From Opitutus sp. (lineage in GTDB: Bacteria; Verrucomicrobiota; Verrucomicrobiia; Opitutales; Opitutaceae): a DNA stretch of 64,000 nt. The position numbers and the translations under genes are program-made. Shown in pieces: positions 10,071 through 24,457 of the stretch. The notes below the pieces were generated by a model. The model was not told where the DNA came from, made no database searches, and saw nothing but the letters and a program-made list of their open reading frames with translations. Numbering within the stretch: the stretch's first letter is position 1; every line of letters starts with the position of its first letter. The stretch spans positions 1 to 64,000 of the forward strand of contig SIBG01000004.1 of assembly GCA_009695305.1 (NCBI GenBank), given 5' to 3'.

Positions 10071-11576
10071 CTATCTGGTGAAATAGCGGTAAGCCGCGAT
10101 CCCCGACCCGAGGAGGAGCAATCCGAGCATCGGCAGGGCCAGTTTCAGCACGGCATCGGTCTGCAGCGCCTCGCCAGTCATCCCGCCCTGCGGGTTGGCG
10201 CTGCGGGCGCGAATACGGCCCTTTTTGAGGAAGCCGTCGTAGTGGCGCTGGAGCAGGAAGGTCTCGATCTGGCGCATCGTATCGAGGATGACGCCGACGG
10301 TGATCAGCATGCCGGTGCCGCCGAAGAAGTAGGCGATCGCGTGGGGGACATTGAGCTTGAACAGCAGAATGTCGGGCATGACGGCGATGATCGTGAGGAA
10401 GATCGCCCCGGCGAGGGTGAGTCGCGTCATGATAAAATCGAGGAACTGCGCCGTCGGCTCACCCGGACGAACGCCAGGGATGTAGCCGCCGTATTTCTTC
10501 AGGTCGTCGGCAATCTGGATCGGCTTGAACATGACGGAGACCCAAAAATAGCTGAAGAACAAGATCAGGAAGGTGTAGAAAAGATAGTAGAAGAAACTGC
10601 CGGGGGTGAGCGTCTGGGCGAGCTCGGTCAGGAACTTCAGGTTGTAGGCCGTGCCGATCCAGTGGAAGATCTGCTGCGGGAAGAGCAAAATCGCGCTCGC
10701 GAAAATCACCGGCATGACACCCGAGTAATTGACCTTGAGCGGGAGGAACGAGCTCTGCCCACCCATGACCTTGTTGCCGACGATCCGCTTCGCGTATTGC
10801 ACGGGGATTTTGCGCTGCCCCTGCACGACGGCGATGATGCCCATCGTCACCGCGATGAAGAGGGCGACCATGATCACCGCCTGCGGCACGCCGAGCGTCT
10901 GGCCGGTGCCGACGGGGCGGAAGAACATACCGTAAGTCAGCTTCGCCGCGTTGGGGATCTCGGACAGGATGCCGACGGTGATGAGGAGCGAGACGCCGTT
11001 GCCGATGCCACGTTGGGTGATTTGCTCACCGAGCCACATCAGCAGCATCGTGCCCGCGGTCATCAGGATCACCGAGATGGGAATGAATCCCCCCTGGCCC
11101 ATGATCACGATGGGACCGTATTGGGAGACGTCGTAGCCGCTGAACAGCTGGGCGGGATTATTGAGAGCCAGGAGGAGGAGGGTGCCCTGGATGATACAAA
11201 TGAAGACCGTCGCGTAGCGCGTGTATTGGGTGAGCTTCTGGCGGCCGACGTCGCCTTCCTGCTGGAGGCGGCTGAGGGCGGGCACCACCGCAGTCATCAA
11301 TTGAAAAATGATGGAGGCGCTGATGTAGGGCATGATGCCCAGGGCGCAAATCGCGCCCTTCGTGAGCGCGCCGCCGGTGAACATGCTGTAGAGGCCGACG
11401 AGACCGCCGCCCACCGAGCCGGCCTGCTCCTCGAAGAATCGCTGGAGCGGGTGCGGGTCGATGCCTGGCAGCGGAATGTGCGCGGCCACCCGCGACACGA
11501 AGAGCAGTGACAGCGTGTAGAAGATGCGCGAGCGGAGCTCGGGAATCTTCAGGGAGTTCGTAAAGGCGGAAAACAC
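10071..11576 (-). CDS. secY: Preprotein translocase subunit SecY
   Basis: The 501-residue protein has ten hydrophobic helices and SecY signatures: RVAAHIPLPGID near the N-terminus, MPYISASIIFQLM in TM2 and GEQITQRGIGNGVSLLI in the TM4-5 region. SecY is the protein-conducting pore of the Sec translocon in the cytoplasmic membrane; its partner secE is at 40545-40748. The start codon is GTG. It is ~55 residues longer than E. coli SecY, partly through a longer periplasmic loop near residue 40 (FFEEQAGSVGGGLVGLYS) and a C-terminal extra helix (LALPMLGLLLLGSGIAAY). Confidence 0.97.
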   Translation of the reverse strand: MFSAFTNSLKIPELRSRIFYTLSLLFVSRVAAHIPLPGIDPHPLQRFFEEQAGSVGGGLVGLYSMFTGGALTKGAICALGIMPYISASIIFQLMTAVVPALSRLQQEGDVGRQKLTQYTRYATVFICIIQGTLLLLALNNPAQLFSGYDVSQYGPIVIMGQGGFIPISVILMTAGTMLLMWLGEQITQRGIGNGVSLLITVGILSEIPNAAKLTYGMFFRPVGTGQTLGVPQAVIMVALFIAVTMGIIAVVQGQRKIPVQYAKRIVGNKVMGGQSSFLPLKVNYSGVMPVIFASAILLFPQQIFHWIGTAYNLKFLTELAQTLTPGSFFYYLFYTFLILFFSYFWVSVMFKPIQIADDLKKYGGYIPGVRPGEPTAQFLDFIMTRLTLAGAIFLTIIAVMPDILLFKLNVPHAIAYFFGGTGMLITVGVILDTMRQIETFLLQRHYDGFLKKGRIRARSANPQGGMTGEALQTDAVLKLALPMLGLLLLGSGIAAYRYFTR

Positions 11577-12918: not shown

Positions 12919-13281
12919 TTAGAATTGGAGGCCACCTTCGCGCGCGGCGTCGGCGAATGTTTTTACTTTGCCGTGATACGGGGCGCCGCAGCGGTCGAAT
13001 ACGACCGAGGCGATGCCGGCGGCCTTGGCCTTGAGGGCAAAAGCAACGCCGAGCACTTTCGCGCTGGCGATATTGGCCTTGAGCTTCTGCTTGCGGAGTT
13101 CGGCATCGAGGCTGCCGAGAAACACGAGCGTGGCGCCGGCGTCGTCGTTGATCGCTTGGGCGTAGATGTGCTTCGCGGTGAAGCGCACGCAGAGGCGCGG
13201 ACGGAGGGCGGTGCCGGTGATTTTCTTGCGGATGCGCCAGCGGCGATTTTGCAGGAGCCGGGCTTTCGTGACAGTTTTCAT
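12919..13281 (-). CDS. rplR: 50S ribosomal protein L18
   Basis: The 120-residue protein has the L18 pattern: basic N-terminus ([18 protein letters not shown]), [20 protein letters not shown] strand region and the ending [27 protein letters not shown]18 binds 5S rRNA together with L5. Length and position between rplF and rpsE are normal. Confidence 0.97.
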
Positions 13282-13298
13282 TGGAGAGGTTTTCGGCT

Positions 13299-13838
13299 TT
13301 AGGCGACGGTCTTGCCTTCTTTGCGGCGAACGCGCTCGCCAACGATCCGGACACCCTTGCCCTTGTAGGGCTCGGGCGGGTAGTAGCTGCGGATTTCCGC
13401 GGTGACGGCGCCGACCAGCTGTTTGTCCGCGCCTTCAACCTTGATCTTGGTGCCTTCGTCGACCGTGACCTTAATGCCGTCGGGAATATCCATCAGGATC
13501 GGATGCGAATAACCGAGCGCGAGATCAAGGCTCTTGCCTTTGAGGATGGCCTTGAAGCCGACGCCCTGAATTTCGAGATCCTTGCTGTAGCCTTCGGAAG
13601 CGCCTTTGACCATGCTGGCAATGACCGAGCGGACGGTGCCATACATCGCTTTCGCGAAGCGGCTGTCGTCGGCGGTGGGCGAGACGACGACTTGCTTGGC
13701 GTCCACCGAAATCTTCACGACGGGCGCGAAGAGTTTCGAGACGGTGCCTTTGGGACCCACGACGAGGACGGTGCTGTCGGTGACAGTGACCTTAACCTTG
13801 TCGGGGATGAGAACGGGTTGTTTGCCGATGCGGCTCAT
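13299..13838 (-). CDS. rplF: 50S ribosomal protein L6
   Basis: The 179-residue protein starts MSRIGKQPVLIPDKVKV and shows two L6 repeats and the C-terminal signature PEPYKGKGVRIVGERVRRKEGK, which binds 23S rRNA near the sarcin-ricin loop. Length matches the family. It lies between rpsH and rplR as in the standard spc operon. Confidence 0.97.
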   Translation of the reverse strand: MSRIGKQPVLIPDKVKVTVTDSTVLVVGPKGTVSKLFAPVVKISVDAKQVVVSPTADDSRFAKAMYGTVRSVIASMVKGASEGYSKDLEIQGVGFKAILKGKSLDLALGYSHPILMDIPDGIKVTVDEGTKIKVEGADKQLVGAVTAEIRSYYPPEPYKGKGVRIVGERVRRKEGKTVA

Positions 13839-13851
13839 GGTGCGTGGCGAG

Positions 13852-14244
13852 TTACCAAACGTTGCAGATCATTTCGCCACCGGCTTTGTTGCGACGGCAG
13901 TCGGCGTCTTTCATCAGGCCGCGCGAAGTCGACACGATGCCGATGCCGAGGCCGTTAAGAACGCGCGGGATTTCAGTGTAGCCGAAATAGAGGCGGCGGC
14001 CGGGCGAAGACACGCGAGTGATGCCGGTGATGGCGGGAGCGCCGTCGACATACTTCATTTTCACCACGAGGGTCTTGTGGCCCGCGGCGTCGGCGGCGTT
14101 GGTGTGGTCCACCACGTAGCCTTCGGTCTTGAGGATCGCAGCGATGCTTTCCTTGAGGGTGGAGTGCGGAATCACGCAATCGTCGAGGCGCGCCTTGCTG
14201 GCGTTGCGCAGACGCGTGAGGAGGTCACTGATCGGGTCGGTCAT
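13852..14244 (-). CDS. rpsH: 30S ribosomal protein S8
   Basis: The 130-residue protein starts MTDPISDLLTRLRNASKA and has the C-terminal S8 signature GIGIVSTSRGLMKDADCRRNKAGGEMICNVW that grips helix 21 of 16S rRNA. The segment is quoted here only by its ends, STSRGLMKDA and GGEMICNVW. Length is normal. In E. coli S8 also represses the spc operon through an mRNA mimic near rplE; no such element was verified here. Confidence 0.96.
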   Translation of the reverse strand: MTDPISDLLTRLRNASKARLDDCVIPHSTLKESIAAILKTEGYVVDHTNAADAAGHKTLVVKMKYVDGAPAITGITRVSSPGRRLYFGYTEIPRVLNGLGIGIVSTSRGLMKDADCRRNKAGGEMICNVW

Positions 14245-14322
14245 GGTGGATGTGGTTGGAGCGGTGGCCGTGGGTCATATCCGAGGCGCCAATGGCGCCC
14301 AAACCCCCGCGGCCGGGAAATA

Positions 14323-14628
14323 TTACCAGGAAGATTTGATGACGCCGGGAATCTTGCCGTTGAGGGCGAGTTCGCGAAACGTAATGCGGGAGACGCCGAA
14401 CTTGCCGATGTAGGCGCGCGGGCGGCCGCTCTGGGAGCAGCGGTTGCGGATGCGGGTGGGCGAGGAATTGCGCGGGAGCTTCTGGAGCTTTTTCTGCGCC
14501 GCGTAAAAGGCGTCGTCGGCGGTGGCGGGATTCTTGAGGACGGCTTTCAGCTCGGCGCGTTCCGCGGCGTGCTTGGCGGTGAGTCTTTTGCGCTTTTCGT
14601 TGCGCTGGATGGCGGATGTCTTGGGCAT
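14323..14628 (-). CDS. rpsN: 30S ribosomal protein S14, zinc-independent type
   Basis: The 101-residue protein starts [20 protein letters not shown] and ends [24 protein letters not shown] (ends quoted: [18 protein letters not shown]). It is the long S14 form with a helical middle, and the region [20 protein letters not shown] has only one Cys, so it has lost the CxxC...CxxC zinc site of the short form. It assembles late into the 30S head. Confidence 0.96.
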
Positions 14629-14642
14629 GGTCGGCGAAAAAT

Positions 14643-15224
14643 TTAGGCGGCGGTGGGCTTGGGAGCGGCGACTTGGGGTTCGATGCGGCGGAAAGGCATG
14701 CCGAGGAGCTTGAGGAGCTCACGGCCTTCGTCGTCGTTCGTGGCCGTCGTGACGATGGTGATGTCGAGGCCCATCGTCTTCTTAACATTTTCCACCGTGA
14801 TTTCGGGGAAGATCGTGAAGTCGGCGATGCCGAGATTGTAGTTACCCTGACCGTCGAGCTTGGAGCCGACACCGCGGAAGTCGCGGATCGCGGGGAGCGC
14901 GACGGCGAGGAGGCGGTAGAAGAACTCCCACATGGCGTGACCGCGCAGCGTGACGCTGCAGCCGACGATCTGGTTTTCCTTCAGCTTGAAATTAGCAATG
15001 GCCTTGCGCGACTTGTTCAGGATCGGCTTCTGGCCGGCGATGAGGGCCATGTCGCGCGCGATGTCGGTGATCTGGTTTTTGTCGGCGTCCGCGTCGATGC
15101 CGGTGTTCAGGTTGATCTTGGTGATCGACGGAACCTGATGCTTGTTTTTATAGCCGCGGGTCTTCACGAGCTCAGGGACAACCTGTTCGAGATAGATTTT
15201 TTTGAGAGAAGGGACGTAGCTCAT
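14643..15224 (-). CDS. rplE: 50S ribosomal protein L5
   Basis: The 193-residue protein has L5 motifs: [14 protein letters not shown] near residue 30, [19 protein letters not shown], and the end [20 protein letters not shown] (shown as [10 protein letters not shown] and DDEGRELL). It binds 5S rRNA and the P-site tRNA elbow. A short Pro/Ala tail ([10 protein letters not shown]) follows the family core of ~180 residues. Confidence 0.97.
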
Positions 15225-15292
15225 GTTCGTTGCCCCGGATTACCGACCCGGAGGCGTTGAGTGTGGTGTGATAAGGTGGAAGGACCGGCGGC

Positions 15293-15571
15293 TCAGGCGG
15301 CGACCGTGGCGGTGGGTTTCTTGCGCTTGCTCGCGTCGAAAACCGACTGGAGCATGAGATTGGAGACATGGATGGAGCCTTCGCGTTCGGCGATGGTGCC
15401 CTGCGGATGCTCCGCTGATTTTTTGAGGTGCCGCTTGATCATGCAGACGCCTTCGACGCGCGCGCGCGCCTTGGCGGAGAGCACCTCCAGAACTTTGCCA
15501 GTCTTGCCCTTGTGGGCGCCGGCGATGACGACGACCTGGTCGCCGCGTTTGACGTGAAATTTCAGGGCCAT
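15293..15571 (-). CDS. rplX: 50S ribosomal protein L24
   Basis: The 92-residue protein starts with the KOW motif KRGDQVVVIAGAHKGKTGKV that nucleates 23S rRNA folding, followed by GVCMIKRHLK and the basic C-terminus. It is at the short end of L24 lengths (~100). Its ATG begins one base after the rplN stop (TAA-C-ATG), so the pair is tightly coupled. Confidence 0.95.
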   Translation of the reverse strand: MALKFHVKRGDQVVVIAGAHKGKTGKVLEVLSAKARARVEGVCMIKRHLKKSAEHPQGTIAEREGSIHVSNLMLQSVFDASKRKKPTATVAA

Positions 15572-15572
15572 G

Positions 15573-15938
15573 TTAGAGAACCTCCGGAGCGAGCGAGATG
15601 ATCTTCATGAAGTTCTTCGCGCGCAGTTCGCGGGCGACGGGGCCGAAGATGCGGGTGCCCTTCGGATTGTTCGTCGCGTCGATGATGACGATCGCATTGC
15701 TGTCAAAACGCAGATAGCTGCCGTCGGGCCGGCGGACCGGCTTCTTCGTGCGGACGACGACGGCCTTGTGGACCTCGCCTTTTTTGACCGTCGCTTCGGT
15801 GGAGCTTTGTTTGATGTGGACGGTGATGATGTCGCCGATGCCGGCGGTGTCGGTGATCTGGCCCATGCGGGAGATCATCGCGGCCCGGCGGGCGCCGGTG
15901 TTATCGGCGACGTCGAGGATAGAGCGTAATTGGATCAT
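15573..15938 (-). CDS. rplN: 50S ribosomal protein L14
   Basis: The 121-residue protein starts [20 protein letters not shown] and ends [19 protein letters not shown], both family hallmarks. L14 lies at the subunit interface and contacts L19 and 16S rRNA helix 14. Length is exactly typical. Confidence 0.97.
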
Positions 15939-15975
15939 GGCGGGACTCCGGGGGAGTTAGTGGTTAGGCAGGAGT

Positions 15976-16341
15976 TCAGGCCGAGGGCGCAGGAGCGACC
16001 GGCTTGATGGTTTGCTTGGTGGGCACCTGGGCGGCGACATCGGCCTCAGAGATTGCGACGGCGTCGGTGGTGACCCCCTTGAGAATGATCGAGACGACGC
16101 GCCAGCGCTTGAGGCGGCTGAGCGGACGGGTCTCCATCACCTCGACCTTGTCCCCCACCTTGGTCTCGTTCTTCTCGTCATGGACGTGGAGGACGGTCTG
16201 GCGGTTGACGACCTTTTGGTAGAGCGGGTGCGGCTTCTTGTAGGCGACGGTGACCTTGACGGACTTGTCGCCGGAGCGGCTGGACACGAAACCGATTTGA
16301 GTGCGGCGCGCGCTGCGCTGGCCGGGAGTGACGATGGACAT
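15976..16341 (-). CDS. rpsQ: 30S ribosomal protein S17 with extended C-terminus
   Basis: Residues ~10-90 are the OB-fold S17 (GFVSSRSGDKSVKVTVAYKK, then VGDKVEVMETRPLSRLKRWR). About 30 extra residues (AISEADVAAQVPTKQTIKPV and an Ala/Pro end) follow, so the protein is 121 residues against the usual 80-90. S17 is a primary 16S rRNA binder in the 30S body. Confidence 0.95.
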   Translation of the reverse strand: MSIVTPGQRSARRTQIGFVSSRSGDKSVKVTVAYKKPHPLYQKVVNRQTVLHVHDEKNETKVGDKVEVMETRPLSRLKRWRVVSIILKGVTTDAVAISEADVAAQVPTKQTIKPVAPAPSA

Positions 16342-16371
16342 GGCGATAAAGGTGGTTCAGTTCCCGCGCGC

Positions 16372-16575
16372 TCAGGCGGCGACGGGGGCGGTTTTCTTTT
16401 GGTTCTGGATGGTCTCGAGGCGGGCGATGTCCTTGCGAAGCGTGCGCAGCTCGTGAGTTTTCTCGACCTGCCCGGTCTGCTTGCGCAGGCGGAGCTGGAG
16501 GAGCTGTTCGCGGATCTCGCGAAGCTTGGTGGTGATCTCGGCGGGCGAGAGGTCGCGAATTTCTTTGGCGGTCAT
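16372..16575 (-). CDS. rpmC: 50S ribosomal protein L29
   Basis: The 67-residue two-helix protein starts [20 protein letters not shown] and contains [20 protein letters not shown], the L29 signature. It sits at the exit tunnel next to L23 and helps form the docking site for nascent-chain factors. Confidence 0.95.
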
Positions 16576-16601
16576 GGGGACGACGGGTTGGAGGTTTCAG
16601 C

Positions 16602-17027
16602 TCAGACGGCGGTGCCTTCGCGAACGATGAATCGGCAGTGGAACGGCAGCTTGGCATCGGCGAGGCGGAAGGCCTCCCTGGCGACGCTGAGCGAGATACC
16701 GGCGAGTTCGAAGAGGACGGCGCCGGGCTTGATGACGGCGACGTAGTATTCGACCGGGCCCTTGCCCTGGCCCATGCGCACCTCGGCGGGCTTCTTGCTG
16801 ATCGGCTTGTGCGGGAAAATGCGGATCCAGAGTTTGCCCTTGCGCTTGAGGTGGCGCGAGATGGTGACGCGCGCGGCCTCGATCTGCTGGCCGGTCATCG
16901 GGCCCCGGGTGAGCGATTGCAGGCCGAATTCGCCGAAGGCGATCGTGTTGCCGCGCTTGGCATTGCCAGCGCGGGAGCCTTTCATCGACTTGCGGTATTT
17001 AGTGCGGGCGGGAGCGAGAGCGGACAT
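16602..17027 (-). CDS. rplP: 50S ribosomal protein L16
   Basis: The 141-residue protein has L16 signatures: [20 protein letters not shown] at the start, [20 protein letters not shown] and [20 protein letters not shown], including the Arg-Met-Gly-Gln-Gly loop that reaches the A-site tRNA. Length is a few residues over E. coli L16. Confidence 0.97.
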
Positions 17028-17067
17028 GGAAAAGTTCTCCTAAATTTTAAAGGCGGTCAGACGCGAA

Positions 17068-17700
17068 TCAGTTGTTGTCGGCTTCTTTTTTGCAGATCCA
17101 GCATTTGACGCCGATCTTGCCGTAAACGGTGAGCGCTTCGGCAAAACCGTAGTCGATGTTTTCGCGCAGGGTGTGCAACGGCACGCGGCCCTTGCGCTGC
17201 CACTCGCGGCGGGCGATGTCCGCACCGCCGAGGCGGCCGGAGCACTGAATGCGGATGCCTTCGGCGCCGAGCGCCATGGCCATTTCGACGGCCTTCTTCA
17301 TGGCGCGGCGGAACGCGATGCGGCGCTCGAGCTGGAGCGCGACGTTCTCGGCGACCAACGCGGCCTCGATCTCGGGCTTTTTGACTTCCTGGATGTCGAG
17401 GAGGATTTCCTTGCCGGTGAGCTTGGAGAGCTCGTCCTTGATCTTCTCGATTTCCTGGCCCTTGCGGCCGATGACGATGCCGGGGCGGGCGGTGTAAATT
17501 TTGACGCGGACGCGGTTCGAGGCGCGCTCGATGAAGATGCGCGGCACGGAAGCCTGTTTGAGTTTCTCCATCAGCTTGGTGCGGATGAGCTGATCCTCGG
17601 CGAGGAGCTTCGGGAAATCTTTCTTGGTCGCGAACCAGCGCGACTGCCAGTTGCGGCGGACGGCGAGACGGAAACCGATCGGGTTTGTTTTTTGGCCCAT
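17068..17700 (-). CDS. rpsC: 30S ribosomal protein S3
   Basis: The 210-residue protein starts [20 protein letters not shown] and has a type II KH domain with the loop [15 protein letters not shown] near residues 75-90, then the C-terminal [25 protein letters not shown]3 lines the mRNA entry channel and contributes helicase activity with S4 and S5. It is shorter than E. coli S3 because the poorly conserved tail is brief. Confidence 0.97.
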
Positions 17701-17709
17701 GGAAGGAAA

Positions 17710-18051
17710 TTAGTTGGATTGGCCGTCGGAGAGGACGATGCGGATGTGCGACATCTTCTTGCGGCGGGGCATCGCGGTGCCGCGGGCGCCGGCCTTGAAG
17801 CGCTTCAGCACCGGGCCGTTCTCAATCAAGGCGAACTTGATCGTGAGGCTGTCGGCCGAGAGGTTGTTGTTGTTCTCGGCGTTCGCGATGGCGCTCTTCA
17901 GCGTCTTGGCGATCAGGCGGGCGGACTTGCGCGGGATGAGCGCGAGGTAATCGACGGCTTCGGTGGCCTTGCGGCCTTGGACCACGCGGGAGATATCGCG
18001 CATCTTCTTGGGCGACATTCTCGCGTAACGGGTGAGGGCTTGGACTTCCAT
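17710..18051 (-). CDS. rplV: 50S ribosomal protein L22
   Basis: The 113-residue protein starts MEVQALTRYARMSPKKMRDI and ends with the beta-hairpin region KRFKAGARGTAMPRRKKMSHIRIVLSDG (shown as KRFKAGARGTAMPRRKK and SHIRIVL) that lines the exit tunnel. Normally rpsS precedes rplV almost directly; here an unrelated gene (18136-18504) separates them. Confidence 0.97.
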   Translation of the reverse strand: MEVQALTRYARMSPKKMRDISRVVQGRKATEAVDYLALIPRKSARLIAKTLKSAIANAENNNNLSADSLTIKFALIENGPVLKRFKAGARGTAMPRRKKMSHIRIVLSDGQSN

Positions 18052-18135
18052 GGTAGTGGTGAGAATTCCGAATTTTTCGGTTCGGCGATAGTGGTTCCGC
18101 AGGCGCGGGACCCTACCCTTTGGATCGGTTAGGTT

Positions 18136-18504
18136 TTAGGTTTTAAGGATTTTGATGCTGGCGGTGTCGCCGGCGTGGATCGACTGGCCCGGCGCCACGC
18201 TGAGGATCAAGGCGGCGCTGCAAGTCGGGCGCAGATCGACGAGGAGGACTTCCGCGATCCCGGTGGCACCGCGCGTGAGGCGGCAAACCATGCCCTGGCG
18301 CAGGCCCGCATCGAAACCCCGGCCCAGGAGAATCAGGTCGGCGGTGGACGTGGGCTGGATCGCCACGACGGAAGCGGTCGGGACCGCGGCAACCACCAAC
18401 GACCATGGACTAATGACCAAGGCCAGCACCGCCACCGCACGAAGACGGCGGAAACCGGAGGAAACTGGAGGAAAATTAGTCATTGGACGTCGGGCCTTGG
18501 TCAT
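18136..18504 (-). CDS. Exported hypothetical protein inserted between rpsS and rplV
   Basis: The 122-residue product starts at an ATG 16 bases after the rpsS stop, with a second in-frame ATG 7 codons later. After a basic N-terminus (SSGFRRLR) comes a hydrophobic segment AVAVLALVISPWSLVVAA, a probable signal peptide or anchor. The rest (LLGRGFDAGLRQGMVCRLTR, then a strand-rich part ending SIHAGDTASIKILKT) looks like a small SH3-like beta barrel of the kind at the C-terminus of FlgT-type proteins; that resemblance is weak. I do not recognise it as a ribosomal protein. The signal-peptide DNA contains degenerate heptamers (18396-18423). Confidence 0.6.
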   Translation of the reverse strand: MTKARRPMTNFPPVSSGFRRLRAVAVLALVISPWSLVVAAVPTASVVAIQPTSTADLILLGRGFDAGLRQGMVCRLTRGATGIAEVLLVDLRPTCSAALILSVAPGQSIHAGDTASIKILKT

Positions 18505-18520
18505 TACGTGCAGCCGCGCG

Positions 18521-18796
18521 TTAGATTTCCTTGCGGGTCATGCCGCCGTGCGACTTGAAGTTACGCGTGGGAGAGAACTCGCCGAGCTTGTGCCCGACCA
18601 TGTTCTCGGTGACGTAGACGGCGGTGAAGATCTTGCCGTTGTGAACGCTGAACGTATGCCCGATGAAATCGGGTGTGATCGTCGAGCGGCGGGACCAAGT
18701 CTGGATGGGCTTCTTGGCGCCGGCCTTGACCGCCTTCTCGATTTTCTCGAGCAGGTGGTAGTCGACAAAGAAACCTTTTTTGATGGAACGTGCCAT
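18521..18796 (-). CDS. rpsS: 30S ribosomal protein S19
   Basis: The 91-residue protein starts [20 protein letters not shown] and carries the S19 signature [31 protein letters not shown] (shown as [12 protein letters not shown] and VGHKLGEF). It pairs with S13 in the 30S head. Length is typical. Confidence 0.97.
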
Positions 18797-18813
18797 GGTG
18801 CGAAAGGGGCGGC

Positions 18814-19680
18814 TTATTTCTTATTGCGCGGCTTGCGGCCGTTATGGTGGACGATGATCTGGCTGGTGGAGAGCTTCGTGCGGCGACGCGTGACGTAGCC
18901 TTTGGCGAGCTGGCCCCACGGCGAGACGAGATGCTGGCGACCACCACCACCCTTGGATTTGCCCTGACCGCCACCGTTCGGGTGGTCGACCGGATTCATC
19001 GCCACGCCGCGAACGTGCGGGCGGCGGCCGAGCCAGCGGGCGCGACCGGCCTTGCCGAGCGACTGCTGGTTGTGATCACCGTTGCCGACTTCACCGATCG
19101 TGGCGCGGCAGTTCGGATGCAACTGGCGGAGTTCGCCCGAGGGCATCTTGAGCGTGGCCTGGCCATTCTCGACGGCGACCAGCTCGAGGCTGGTGCCGGC
19201 GCAACGGGCGATCTTCGCTCCCCGGCCCGGGACGAGCTCCACGCAATGAACGAGGGTCGAAGGCGGGATCAGGTGGAGCGGAAAGTTGTTCCCGACTTTA
19301 AAATCGTTCGTCGTCGCCTTGTTCGAGGCGATGATCATGTCCCCGGGTTTCAGGCCCTTCGGGGCGATGATGTAGGCCTTGTCGCCGTTGGTGTAGGCGA
19401 TGAGCGCGATGTTGGCGGAGCGGTTGGGATCATACTCGATCGCCTGCACCTTGGCCGGCAGGTCGAGCACGGCGCGGTGGAAATCGATGATGCGATAGAG
19501 CTGCTTGTGACCGCCACCGCGATGGCGCGAGGTGACGCGGCCATAGACGTTGCGGCCGCCGCTCTTGTGCTTGTGCTCGGTGAGGGCGCGGAGGGGCCGC
19601 TCTTTCGAAAGCCCGGCCTCCATGTTGAGGGAGGTGAAGCGGCCGGAAGGCGTGAGCGGGCGGAAGGAATGGATGGGCAT
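18814..19680 (-). CDS. rplB: 50S ribosomal protein L2
   Basis: The 288-residue protein has the L2 OB and SH3-like domains and the conserved basic loop [20 protein letters not shown], which supports the peptidyl transferase centre. The loop reads HPNGGGQ rather than the common HPHGGGE, a mild variation. The ending [21 protein letters not shown] is slightly longer than E. coli L2. Confidence 0.97.
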
Positions 19681-19711
19681 GGTGGAGTTTCTCCGGGTGA
19701 GGCGGGCGCGT

Positions 19712-19993
19712 TTAGACGAGCTCGATTTTATCGCCGGCCTTGAGGGTGACGATGGCCTTCTTGAAATCGGAGCCGATGCTGGGCTGGCCCTGCCGGCTCT
19801 TCTTGTTTTTGCCGCGGTAGGTCATCGTGTTCACACGACGGACCGTGACCTTGAAGGTCTGTTCAACGGCCTGCGCAATCTGGTGCTTGTTCGCGTGACC
19901 AAAGACCTCGAAGGTGTATTGGCCGAGCTCGGACGAGAGCTTGTTGGACTTCTCCGAGAGGCGGACGAGTTTGAGGATCTTGTCGGCTTGCAT
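19712..19993 (-). CDS. rplW: 50S ribosomal protein L23
   Basis: The 93-residue protein has [15 protein letters not shown] at the start, [20 protein letters not shown] and [17 protein letters not shown], matching L23, the docking site for trigger factor and SRP at the tunnel exit. Its ATG overlaps the last base of the rplD stop (TAATG), which implies re-initiation coupling. Confidence 0.96.
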
Positions 19994-20628
19994 TAGTTTT
20001 TACCTCCGTTCACGCGGGCCAAAATGGTCTCGAGGGCTTTCGTGCTGACGATGATTTTTTTGTATTGCGCGAGATCGAGGGTGTTGAGCTTCGAGGCGTC
20101 CTGCAGTGACACGCGCTCGATGTTGCGCGCCGCGCGGGCGTGCTCGGCGGTGAACGGCGCATCCACGAGGAGAATTTTTCCCTTCGGCGCGATGCGGCCC
20201 ACGATCACATCGACCAGCTTCGTCTTCGGCTGCGCGACGGAGAACTGCTCGATGACGGCGATTTCGCCGGCGATCGCGCGGTCGAACAGGGCGCGGCTGA
20301 AGGCGAGGTCTTTGACCTTGCCATTGATTTTCTTCGAGTAGTCGCGGGGCTTCGGGCCGAACACGACACCACCACCACCCCAGAGGGGCGAGCGGATGGA
20401 GCCGGCGCGAGCGCGGCCGGTGCCCTTCTGGCGCCATGGCTTCTTGCCGCCGCCGCGGACTTCACCACGAGTCTTCGTGGAGTGCGTGCCCTGGCGGTTG
20501 TTGGCGTTGATGGCGACGATGACTTCTTTCACGGCCTGGAGGCCCTTGTCGCCTTCGAAGGTGGGCAGACCGGCGAATTCTTTTTCGCTGCTGGTCGTGC
20601 CGTCGGAGCTATATACAGTAAGTTTCAT
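19993..20628 (-). CDS. rplD: 50S ribosomal protein L4
   Basis: The 211-residue protein has the tunnel-loop signature [30 protein letters not shown] (shown as [20 protein letters not shown]) and [19 protein letters not shown]4 lines the exit tunnel with L22. In E. coli L4 autoregulates the S10 operon; no leader of that type was identified upstream of rpsJ here. Confidence 0.96.
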
Positions 20629-20645
20629 GGCTGGGTGTCTCCGAA

Positions 20646-21326
20646 TTATTTCTTGGCGGCCGGGGCCGCAGCCGCCACGACCGGAAGCGGACGCTGGCCT
20701 TTGATGGCGGAACGGACCACGACGTCGTCGCCGTTGGCGCCGGGAATCGCGCCCTTCACGAGGATGAGATTCTTGTCGGCAATGATCTTAATGACGCGCA
20801 GGTTCTGCATCGTGCGGGCGTCGCTGCCCATGTGGCCGGGCATGCGCTGGTTTTTCCACGTGCGGCCGGGCGTCTGCCGCATACCGATGGAGCCGATACG
20901 CCGGTGAAACATCGAGCCGTGCGCCGCGGGACCGCCAGCGACCCGGAAGCGTTTCACGACCCCTTGGAAGCCTTTGCCCTTGCTGATGCCGCTGACATCA
21001 ACGAGCTGGCCTTCGGTGAAGGCCGCAACCGTGACGATGTCGCCGACTTTCAGCGTGGACGCAGCGGTGAGGCGGACTTCGCTGAGGACGCGGGGCGCGA
21101 CTGCGAGGCCGGCCTTCTTCGCGTGGCCAAGTTCACCGTTGGGGGTGTTCTTGGGTTTCTTGGTGGCGAAGCCGAGTTGGACAGCGTCGTAGCCGTCAAC
21201 CGCGACAGTCTTCACTTGGACGACCGAACAGGGTCCGGCTTCGACGACGGAGACGGGAACTAGGACGTTTTGAGCGTCGTAGACCTGCGTCATGCCGATT
21301 TTTTTGCCGAGGAGCGATGAGATCAT
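20646..21326 (-). CDS. rplC: 50S ribosomal protein L3
   Basis: The 226-residue protein starts MISSLLGKKIGMTQVYD and carries VDVSGISKGKGFQGVVKRF and GSIGMRQTPGRTWKNQRMPG, the loop that reaches the peptidyl transferase centre and holds the Gln methylated by PrmB in some bacteria. An Ala/Pro tail follows. About 115 bp separate it from rpsJ, more than elsewhere in the cluster, with no feature I can name. Confidence 0.97.
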   Translation of the reverse strand: MISSLLGKKIGMTQVYDAQNVLVPVSVVEAGPCSVVQVKTVAVDGYDAVQLGFATKKPKNTPNGELGHAKKAGLAVAPRVLSEVRLTAASTLKVGDIVTVAAFTEGQLVDVSGISKGKGFQGVVKRFRVAGGPAAHGSMFHRRIGSIGMRQTPGRTWKNQRMPGHMGSDARTMQNLRVIKIIADKNLILVKGAIPGANGDDVVVRSAIKGQRPLPVVAAAAPAAKK

Positions 21327-21440
21327 GGGCTAAGTGGTAGGTGGAAAGGTTTCCGTTTAACGACCTACATTAGTCGAGGCCTGGCGGTGCCGCGAAGGGC
21401 ACACAGGCAACTGCCAATGTGTGAATGTTAAGAGTGAGTC

Positions 21441-21749
21441 TTAGACGTTGATGGTAATATCTACGCCGGAAGGCAGGTTGAGTTTCTTGAGCTCATCCAC
21501 GGTTTGCGCGGTGGGCTCGATGATATCGATGAGACGCTTGTGCGTGCGGGTCTCGAACTGCTCCATCGACTTTTTGTCGACGTGCGGGGAGCGGTTGACG
21601 GAGAGTTTCTCGATGCGGGTGGGCAGCGGGATGGGGCCGGAAACGCGCGCGCCGGAGCGCTTGGCGGTTTCGACAATGTCCTTGGCGGACTGATCGATCA
21701 CACGATAGTCGAAACCCTGAAGTTTGATGCGGATGCGCTGGCCTTTCAT
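21441..21749 (-). CDS. rpsJ: 30S ribosomal protein S10
   Basis: The 102-residue protein starts [20 protein letters not shown] and has [20 protein letters not shown] and [20 protein letters not shown], the S10/NusE signature. It acts in the 30S head and, as NusE, links RNA polymerase to NusG. It follows fusA by ~20 bp with no tuf between, joining the str and S10 units. Confidence 0.97.
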
Positions 21750-21769
21750 GGTGAAAAAAGAACGGTGGT

Positions 21770-23965
21770 TTAGCTGCGGGCGGGCCCCTTGGCGTTGGTT
21801 TCGACGATCTTGGCGAGAAGGGCATTCGGCACTTGCTCAAAGTGCGACGGCGTGACCGAGGCGGAGGCGCGGCCCTTCGAAAGCGAGCGGATGTCGGTGA
21901 TGTAACCGAAGAGGGTCGCGAGCGGCACGCGGGAATCAATGATGCACGCGCCGTCTTTGTTTTCCAACCCGAGGATGGAGCCACGACGGCGGTTGATGTC
22001 GCCGATGAGATCGCCCTGGTAATCCTCGGGCGTGGTGACCTCGACGCCCATGATCGGCTCGAGGAGAATCGGGTTGGCGATCTTCATCGCATCCTTGAAC
22101 GCGAAGATGCCGGCCATCTTGAACGCGAGCTCAGACGAGTCGACTTCGTGGAAGGAGCCGTCGGTGATGCGGATGATGACATCCACGACCGGGAAACCGG
22201 CGACGACACCGTTGTTCGTCCCTTCCAGAATGCCTTCGGTCGCGGGCTTGATGAATTCTTTCGGGATGCTGCCGCCGACCGTCTCGTTGATGACTTCGAC
22301 GCCTTTGCCCTTTTCATTCGGCTCAAGCTTGATGCAGACGTGCCCATACTGGCCCTTGCCGCCCGACTGGCGGATGAATTTGCCTTCGCCGTCCGCGGAT
22401 TTCTTGACGGTCTCACGGTAGGCAATCTGCGGCTCGCCGAAGGTCGCTTCGACCTTGAACTCGCGCCTCATGCGGTCGCGGATGATGTCGAGGTGCAACT
22501 CGCCCATGCCGTGGAGAATCGTCTGACCGGTGTCGGGGTCGGATTTGACCCGGAGAGTCGGATCCTCGGCGACGAGGCGTTGGAGCGAGTTACCGAGTTT
22601 TTCCTGGTCCGCCTTCGAATTGGGCTCGATGGACATCGCGATGACGGGCTCGGGGAAGGACGGCGGCTCCAGCCGGATGTCGTAATCCTCGTCGCACAGC
22701 GTGTCACCGGTGATCACGTCCTTGACCCCGACGAGCGCGCAGATGTCGCCCGAGTAGGCCCGGTCGATTTCCTCGCGGTCGATGGCGCGCATGAGCACGA
22801 GGCGCGAGCAGCGCTCGCTGCGGCGGGTGCGCGGATTGTAGAGCGACATGCCCTGCTTCACCATCCCGGTGTAAACGCGGTAGAAGACCAGTTTGCCGAC
22901 GAACGGATCGGTCCAAAGCTTGAAGGCGAGACCGGCCAGCAAGGCTTTGTCGTCCACCACCGCATCGACGGGCTGCCCATCGCTGTCCTGACCTTTCATC
23001 GGCGGAACATCGATCGGGCTCGGGAGGAAGTTGACCACGCAATCGAGGAGACGCTGGACGCCCTTCTTCTTGAAGGCGGACCCCGGGACCACGCCACAAA
23101 ACTTGAGCGAGATGGTGGCTTTGCGCACACCAAGCGTGAGCTCTTCGACCGTGATTTCCTGACCGTTGAGATATTTGTCGGCAATGACGTCGTCGAAGTC
23201 ACAGATGGCCTCAACGAGTTTTTCGCGATAGCTTTTCGCCTCGGCGAGCAGGTTGGCGGGAATCTCGGAGGTCACCGGATTCATGCCGAGCGGATCCGTC
23301 GTGTCGTCGAACACGTAGGCGATCATCTGCACGAGGTCGATCAGGCCACTGAAATTTTCCTCGTTGCCGATCGGGAGGAACAGCGCGTGGGCGTTGCCCT
23401 TGAGCTTGACGCGGATGTCGTCAATCGCCCGATGGAAGTTCGCACCGACGCGATCCATCTTGTTGATGAAGGCGATGCGGGGAACCCGGTATTTGTTGGC
23501 CTGCCGCCAGACGGTCTCGGACTGCGGTTGCACGCCGGCGACCGCATCGAACACCGCGACCGCACCGTCGAGCACGCGGAGCGAACGCTCCACCTCAGCC
23601 GTGAAATCCACGTGACCGGGGGTGTCGATGATGTTAACGCGCTGCTTGATGCCCTTCCACGGCCCCCAAGAAGCGTTCCAGGCACAGGAGATGGCGGCGG
23701 CGGTGATCGTGATGCCGCGTTCGCGCTCCTGCTCCATCCAGTCCGTCACCGTGGTGCCTTCGTGCACTTCGCCCATCTTGTGGACGGCGCCGGAGTAAAA
23801 AAGAATGCGCTCAGTCGTGGTCGTCTTGCCCGCGTCGATGTGCGCGGCGATGCCGATGTTCCGGGTCCATTCGAGCGGGAACGGGCGGTCCTTCGAGTTG
23901 GCCGCGGAAATCTTGGCCTTGTCGGTGACGACAGAAATATTCACAGGTGCAATGACAGCGGACAT
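21770..23965 (-). CDS. fusA: Translation elongation factor G
   Basis: The 731-residue GTPase has all G motifs: G1 [12 protein letters not shown], switch [10 protein letters not shown]4 NKMD. Domains II to V follow in order ([16 protein letters not shown]-type domain III-IV region seen as [17 protein letters not shown]). The protein has ~30 extra N-terminal residues and a ~10-residue insertion ([11 protein letters not shown]) before the G3 strand. EF-G drives translocation and, with RRF, ribosome recycling. The gene lies between rpsG and rpsJ. Confidence 0.97.
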
Positions 23966-23983
23966 GAGCGTGGACCGGACGGG

Positions 23984-24457
23984 TTACCAGCGGAGATGGG
24001 CGAAGGCGCGATTCGCCTGGGCCATCTTGTGCGTGTCTTCTTTCTTCTTCACGACGCCGCCGGTGTTGTTGTAGGCGTCGATGATCTCGGCGGCGAGGGC
24101 GTCCTTCATCGTCACACCCTTGCGGGCATGGGCGGCGGCGACGATCCAGCGCAAGGCGAGGCTCTCCTGGCGCTCAAAGGAAATTTCCACGGGCACCTGA
24201 TAGGTGGCGCCACCGACGCGGCGGCTCTTCACTTCGAGGCGCGGGCGCGCATTTTCCAGCGCACCGAGCAGCAGATCAACCGGATCGCCCTTTTCGAGTT
24301 TCTCGGAAACTTTCTCGAACGCGCCGTAGACGATGCGCTGGGCAATGTTCTTCTTGCCGCTCTTCATGATGACGTTGACGAGGTGCGCAACGAGCAGGTT
24401 GTTGTAGCGGGCATCCGGAACGACCACACGTTTCTCGGCTCTGTGACGGCGTGACAT
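23984..24457 (-). CDS. rpsG: 30S ribosomal protein S7
   Basis: The 157-residue protein starts [20 protein letters not shown] and has [21 protein letters not shown] and the C-terminal [16 protein letters not shown]7 nucleates the 30S head and lines the mRNA exit region. Length and place after rpsL are standard. Confidence 0.97.

Follow-up and report, generated by a model that had tools for sequence, protein, structure and literature searches.

Gene order in the S10 cluster is a textbook case of conservation, and accounts of the cluster normally list ribosomal protein genes together with secY. In a 64,000-nt stretch of DNA from Opitutus sp. (contig SIBG01000004.1; hereafter the window), this cluster also contains a gene for a small exported-type protein, placed between rpsS and rplV. 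Several described systems come close to it. With the C-terminal domain of FlgT (PF16538; 3w1e; 8z5n chain 0), the predicted product shares the barrel fold and, as predicted, its export, but with only about 80 residues after its signal peptide it leaves no room for the N-terminal and middle domains of FlgT. MreC (PF04085; 2j5u, 7eft) resembles the long forms among the relatives of the window protein in its layout of anchor, coiled coil and beta-barrel, yet it has two barrel domains where these have one; moreover, the window form lacks the coiled coil, and its gene lies outside the mre operon. SecM and other export-linked arrest leaders are likewise exported products encoded upstream of genes that they could sense; in contrast, the domain predicted here is folded up to the C-terminus, an arrest motif was not seen, and the long form contains a coiled coil. 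Finally, the PVC signature protein (CT421.2 family; 53-80 aa, present in all PVC phyla) is similarly small, without assigned function and confined to this part of the tree (PMC3444138). In the available part of that paper, however, no rplV link is seen for it; the two proteins are set apart here by description rather than by sequence. We considered the same paper as a possible description of the present gene and rejected it, as it deals with a different protein.

On the minus strand of the window, genes named from their own sequences follow the order fusA (EF-G), rpsJ, rplC, rplD, rplW, rplB, rpsS, the junction ORF and rplV, continuing with rpsC, rplP, rpmC, rpsQ, rplN, rplX, rplE, rpsN, rpsH, rplF and, later, secY (Table 1). 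The ORF is intact and co-oriented with rpsS and rplV; as called, it starts 16 nt after the rpsS stop codon and leaves 84 nt to rplV. In close homologues, the start corresponds to Met8 and lies 37-39 nt past the rpsS stop, a spacing shared by the ATG at 18483. The segment around the first ATG (18473-18505, minus strand) resembles weak repeats dispersed in the genome (at C75:9061, 85% over 33 nt), which suggests that residues 1-7 lie outside the protein. Since homologues start at Met8 and residues 1-7 overlie this repeat, the true start is probably the ATG at 18483 rather than the one at 18504.

Table 1 Features of the rpsS-rplV junction and its surroundings in the window.
Feature	Position	Strand	Length or basis
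Junction ORF	18136-18504	minus	122 aa as called mechanically
Likely CDS of the junction ORF	18136-18483	minus	115 aa, ATG 18483; homologues start at the Met8 equivalent
Predicted N-terminal signal peptide, residues 8-40	18385-18483	minus	sequence, modelled helix, homologue hydropathy
Conserved beta-barrel domain, residues 41-120, with predicted FlgT_C/MreC/F1-barrel-like fold	18145-18384	minus	AlphaFold2, fold matches, alignments
rpsS (S19), upstream neighbour	18521-18796	minus	ORF list, tblastn synteny
rplV (L22), downstream neighbour and phylum-wide linkage partner	17710-18051	minus	ORF list, synteny
Structured RNA element between the ORF and rplV	18068-18121	minus	covariation analysis
secY	10071-11576	minus	same cluster, further downstream

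The predicted signal peptide of the window protein consists of a basic RRLR stretch followed by AVAVLALVISPWSLVVAA, with a signal-peptidase-I-like site after VAA. Signal peptides were assigned by hydropathy and by eye, without a dedicated predictor; by this measure, a strongly hydrophobic N-terminal segment is present in 85 of the 91 proteins found at rpsS-rplV junctions (see below), the remaining six comprising three just below the limit and three that look like misplaced mechanical starts. Just past the predicted signal peptide, many long forms and several short forms of the protein carry an (E/T)RS(L/V/I) motif, which may mark the mature N-terminus.

Homologues with about 44-70% identity occupy the same junction in other genera. 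Among 57 relatives, other genera of the family yielded homologues of 47-62% identity, and the order's other families yielded weaker ones; every clear homologue sat in the rpsS-rplV junction, co-oriented with both genes. For the DNA-pattern search, we used an alignment at the family level, the order-wide one being too divergent. A named collection contributed 35 further loci, mainly from metagenome-assembled Opitutaceae and including the isolate Geminisphaera colitermitum TAV2 (L142); the arrangement rpsS-ORF-rplV was present in all of them bar one on a truncated contig. For the relatives in this collection, the median pN/pS of the ORF was 0.52, with pS near saturation, as against 0.12-0.30 for the flanking ribosomal genes, which points to selection at the protein level that is looser than that on ribosomal proteins. 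The genome is high in GC and has many long chance ORFs, and residues 1-7 are weakly similar to dispersed repeats; even so, the probability that the ORF is a spurious frame in the gap is close to nil, given that frame, domain and position are all conserved phylum-wide, that selection appears to act on the protein and that its fold is modelled confidently. An ordinary chance ORF was rejected, as conservation contradicts it. The junction ORF is a real, conserved coding gene. The preliminary description of this DNA had proposed a gene for an exported-type protein at the S19-L22 junction and had staked the claim on conservation of its frame in relatives; the intact ORF, its conserved homologues and the N-terminal export-type segment bear the proposal out, and the frame is kept across relatives, so that the claim survives.

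Scans of the window protein against Pfam and NCBIfam returned chance matches only, and no model in them covers the family. A search of the literature on rpsS, rplV and Verrucomicrobia found no description of the gene, and the Methylacidiphilum genome paper and the literature on essential genes of Akkermansia yielded nothing usable on it.

We define here an rplV-linked family of exported barrel proteins, to which the window protein belongs: its gene immediately precedes rplV in the same orientation, and the protein combines a signal peptide or anchor with a barrel that matches profile A1 or A4. We searched 372 genomes of the order and 286 of the class with a short-form profile. Beyond the order, its best matches were proteins of about 215-360 aa, many of them also encoded in the rpsS-rplV junction, and a profile of the long form extended the family to additional classes of the phylum, where the gene likewise sits at the junction. 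We then compared 150 rpsS-rplV junctions with both neighbours present, of which 91 were occupied (342-1116 nt) and 59 empty (1-218 nt); as the genomes had been picked with and without hits, the occupied fraction carries little meaning, but the clean split does. All 91 gaps longer than 300 nt encode a family member that fits profile A1 or A4. Across the 150 junctions, the gap showed no gene other than this one, and the 59 short gaps contain none.

Some genomes have a divided S10 operon, with rpsS as the last gene of one cluster and rplV at the head of another one elsewhere (the break lies between the two genes in L207, L208, L213, L219, L227-L229 and L232-L236, with partners L252-L270). The homologue lies directly upstream of rplV in 16 of the 19 split-operon genomes checked, which were chosen partly for holding a hit, so that the figure is not a prevalence. 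Since it adjoins rplV in split operons as well, the gene is tied to rplV and not to the rpsS-rplV pair. The preliminary description was right about the wedged position but missed this tie, along with the phylum-wide arrangement and the long coiled-coil form.

Parsimony on a tree of concatenated L2, S19, L22 and S3 (146 loci) requires at least 16 gains or losses of the gene; with presence as the ancestral state, absence falls into 21 separate groups, one of them with 14 genomes. With at least 16 changes of state, the gene is old, mostly vertically inherited, often lost and dispensable in many lineages.

The family comes in two forms. The short form (about 105-135 aa) is found in relatives at the level of the Opitutales, and the long form (about 160-360 aa) mostly in other orders and classes. 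As judged from sequence, the latter combines a signal peptide or transmembrane anchor with a coiled coil, in which an ESLAxAxxEAExFxxxxxELxxRxEALG-like stretch recurs, and the same C-terminal barrel. Profile-profile comparison aligned the two forms over the whole barrel (probability 98.3, E = 1.4e-14, 84 columns). In a tree of the domain, junction proteins and paralogues encoded elsewhere are separated by one label change, with weak support, and short and long junction forms by two, most forks being weak. The genome of the window itself contains such a paralogue, a 248-aa protein at C32:39016-39228 (L105 2005-2751, minus strand) between pgi and rsmI. It resembles the family in having a membrane anchor or signal, a coiled coil (as in the long form) and a related C-terminal domain; it differs in its locus, in its low identity over the domain (27%) and in falling on the opposite side of the domain tree. 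Related domains are also found in other family genomes without the junction gene. The presence of the same domain in paralogues elsewhere in these genomes would fit independent insertions of similar domains at one hot spot instead of a single inherited gene. We consider such a history very improbable, as occupied junctions hold only this family, the two forms can be aligned along the full length of the barrel and the domain tree puts the paralogues on one side, albeit with weakly supported forks. The simplest reading is one orthologous lineage that lost its coiled coil in the order of the window.

AlphaFold2, applied to the window protein and 30 relatives, modelled residues 41-120 with pLDDT values of 93-97 as six strands and placed a helix (residues 19-30) inside the signal peptide. 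Foldseek searches with this model gave nothing at E = 0.001 or better; the best matches were 8z5n chain 0 from the LPHT ring, FlgT (3w1e), the N-terminal barrels of F1-ATPase, and MreC. To judge from the matching part of the chain, 8z5n chain 0 is probably FlgT. A second structural alignment yielded Z scores of 11.1 for 8z5n and 10.4 for FlgT 3w1e (rmsd 2.1 over 74 residues, 15% identity). The F1-ATPase barrels, however, tied with FlgT at Z = 10.2-10.5, so that the similarity is one of fold only and no function follows from it. The model thus agrees with the preliminary assignment of a beta-barrel with the fold of the FlgT C-terminal domain, but the match is not particular to FlgT. At the profile level, FlgT_C (PF16538) did not match the window protein even at E = 10; long relatives gave sub-threshold matches (E = 0.0047-0.13; no more than 17.8 bits, with the cut-off at 27), and none in eight genomes exceeded the Pfam cut-off. 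The MreC profile likewise stayed well below threshold, both in Pfam (best 12.7 bits against a cut-off of 28) and in NCBIfam. As modelled, the fold is a common small beta-barrel for which FlgT is the best exported analogue, relatedness to FlgT being unproven.

Between the ORF and rplV, we found a conserved, strongly covarying structured RNA element, formed by a helix (AAAGGGYAGGG...CYRTCGCC) and a second short hairpin. The structure forms in 93.9% of cells over 37 family sequences and reaches a covariation score of 0.401, as compared to 0.163 for shuffles; a U-A pair is switched to C-G in 17 sequences, and slid controls drop to 0.05-0.12. An Rfam search over positions 13000-24000 gave no match up to E = 1. 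The element is kept in family genomes both with and without the ORF, and since it is kept where the ORF is absent, it belongs to rplV and not to the ORF. It may represent a ribosomal-protein leader, a ribosomal-protein binding site or a translational control site of rplV.

A covarying hairpin at this position in Opitutaceae, an exported product encoded immediately upstream of rplV even in split operons, and secY downstream in the same cluster would all suit a gene that serves rplV and the spc genes after it, secY among them, as a secretion monitor or translational leader, with stalling or export of its nascent chain setting downstream translation in the manner of secM-secA. We nevertheless regard this as highly doubtful. 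The alignments show no conserved C-terminal arrest motif, with conservation limited to the barrel; the C-terminus is the last barrel strand, is lineage-variable and ends 0-130 nt from rplV; and the hairpin is retained in genomes without the ORF. Known arrest peptides, moreover, are much smaller than the long coiled-coil form.

The location in the S10 cluster had also led to the expectation that the gene is expressed at ribosomal levels, for which we find no support. Codon adaptation, an index that can be biased in a short hydrophobic protein, is 0.446 for the ORF (0.609 for the mature part), and the window's ribosomal genes reach 0.58-0.78; in 28 of 31 related loci, the value of the ORF is below that of every flanking ribosomal gene. 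Synonymous sites also diverge faster in the ORF (pS 0.59 versus 0.35-0.38). Shared transcription with the ribosomal genes is likely, and translation at ribosomal levels is not indicated.

Weak codon adaptation, repeated clean losses, variable length and architecture, and the recurrence of the domain in paralogues at other genomic loci, among them the one beside pgi and rsmI, are what would be expected of a passenger gene: one inserted by chance upstream of rplV in an early ancestor and kept since breakage of the operon is costly, with a job unrelated to ribosomes or growth rate. Against this stand the linkage to rplV, which outlasts an operon break on the gene's other side, and the persistence of the gene in deep branches of several classes; we therefore deem a passenger unlikely, if within reason.

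We favour, with moderate confidence, a different reading, namely that the ORF encodes a shortened, Opitutales-type form of an ancient rplV-linked family that acts as an exported scaffold or adaptor of the cell envelope and is co-transcribed with rplV and secY. The protein would be translated from the S10-spc transcript, which in the window would also carry secY, and exported by Sec. In the periplasm or envelope, its role would, as our best guess, be that of a small oligomeric scaffold or adaptor. By analogy, it may work like MreC (anchor, coiled coil, barrel) or like a ring domain of FlgT, the MreC analogy being weaker for the Opitutales form because the coiled coil is absent there. Its place in the operon would tie supply of the protein to growth rate, with translation below that of ribosomal proteins. 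A further-reaching version, in which the exported protein directly links the Sec pathway or the cell envelope with how the rplV-spc block is expressed throughout the phylum, as a sensor or regulator kept by rplV despite breakage of S10, appears improbable to us.

Taken together, the gene is real, lacks annotation and spans the phylum; its place is very unusual and stable, and its fold is of a known kind. Across the whole phylum, the S10 cluster carries an rplV-linked exported protein for which neither a family model nor a description was found. The gene is a candidate phylum marker. It may also supply a component so far missing from the picture of a cell envelope that has been little studied, and would offer a testable case for coupling between ribosome synthesis and envelope growth.
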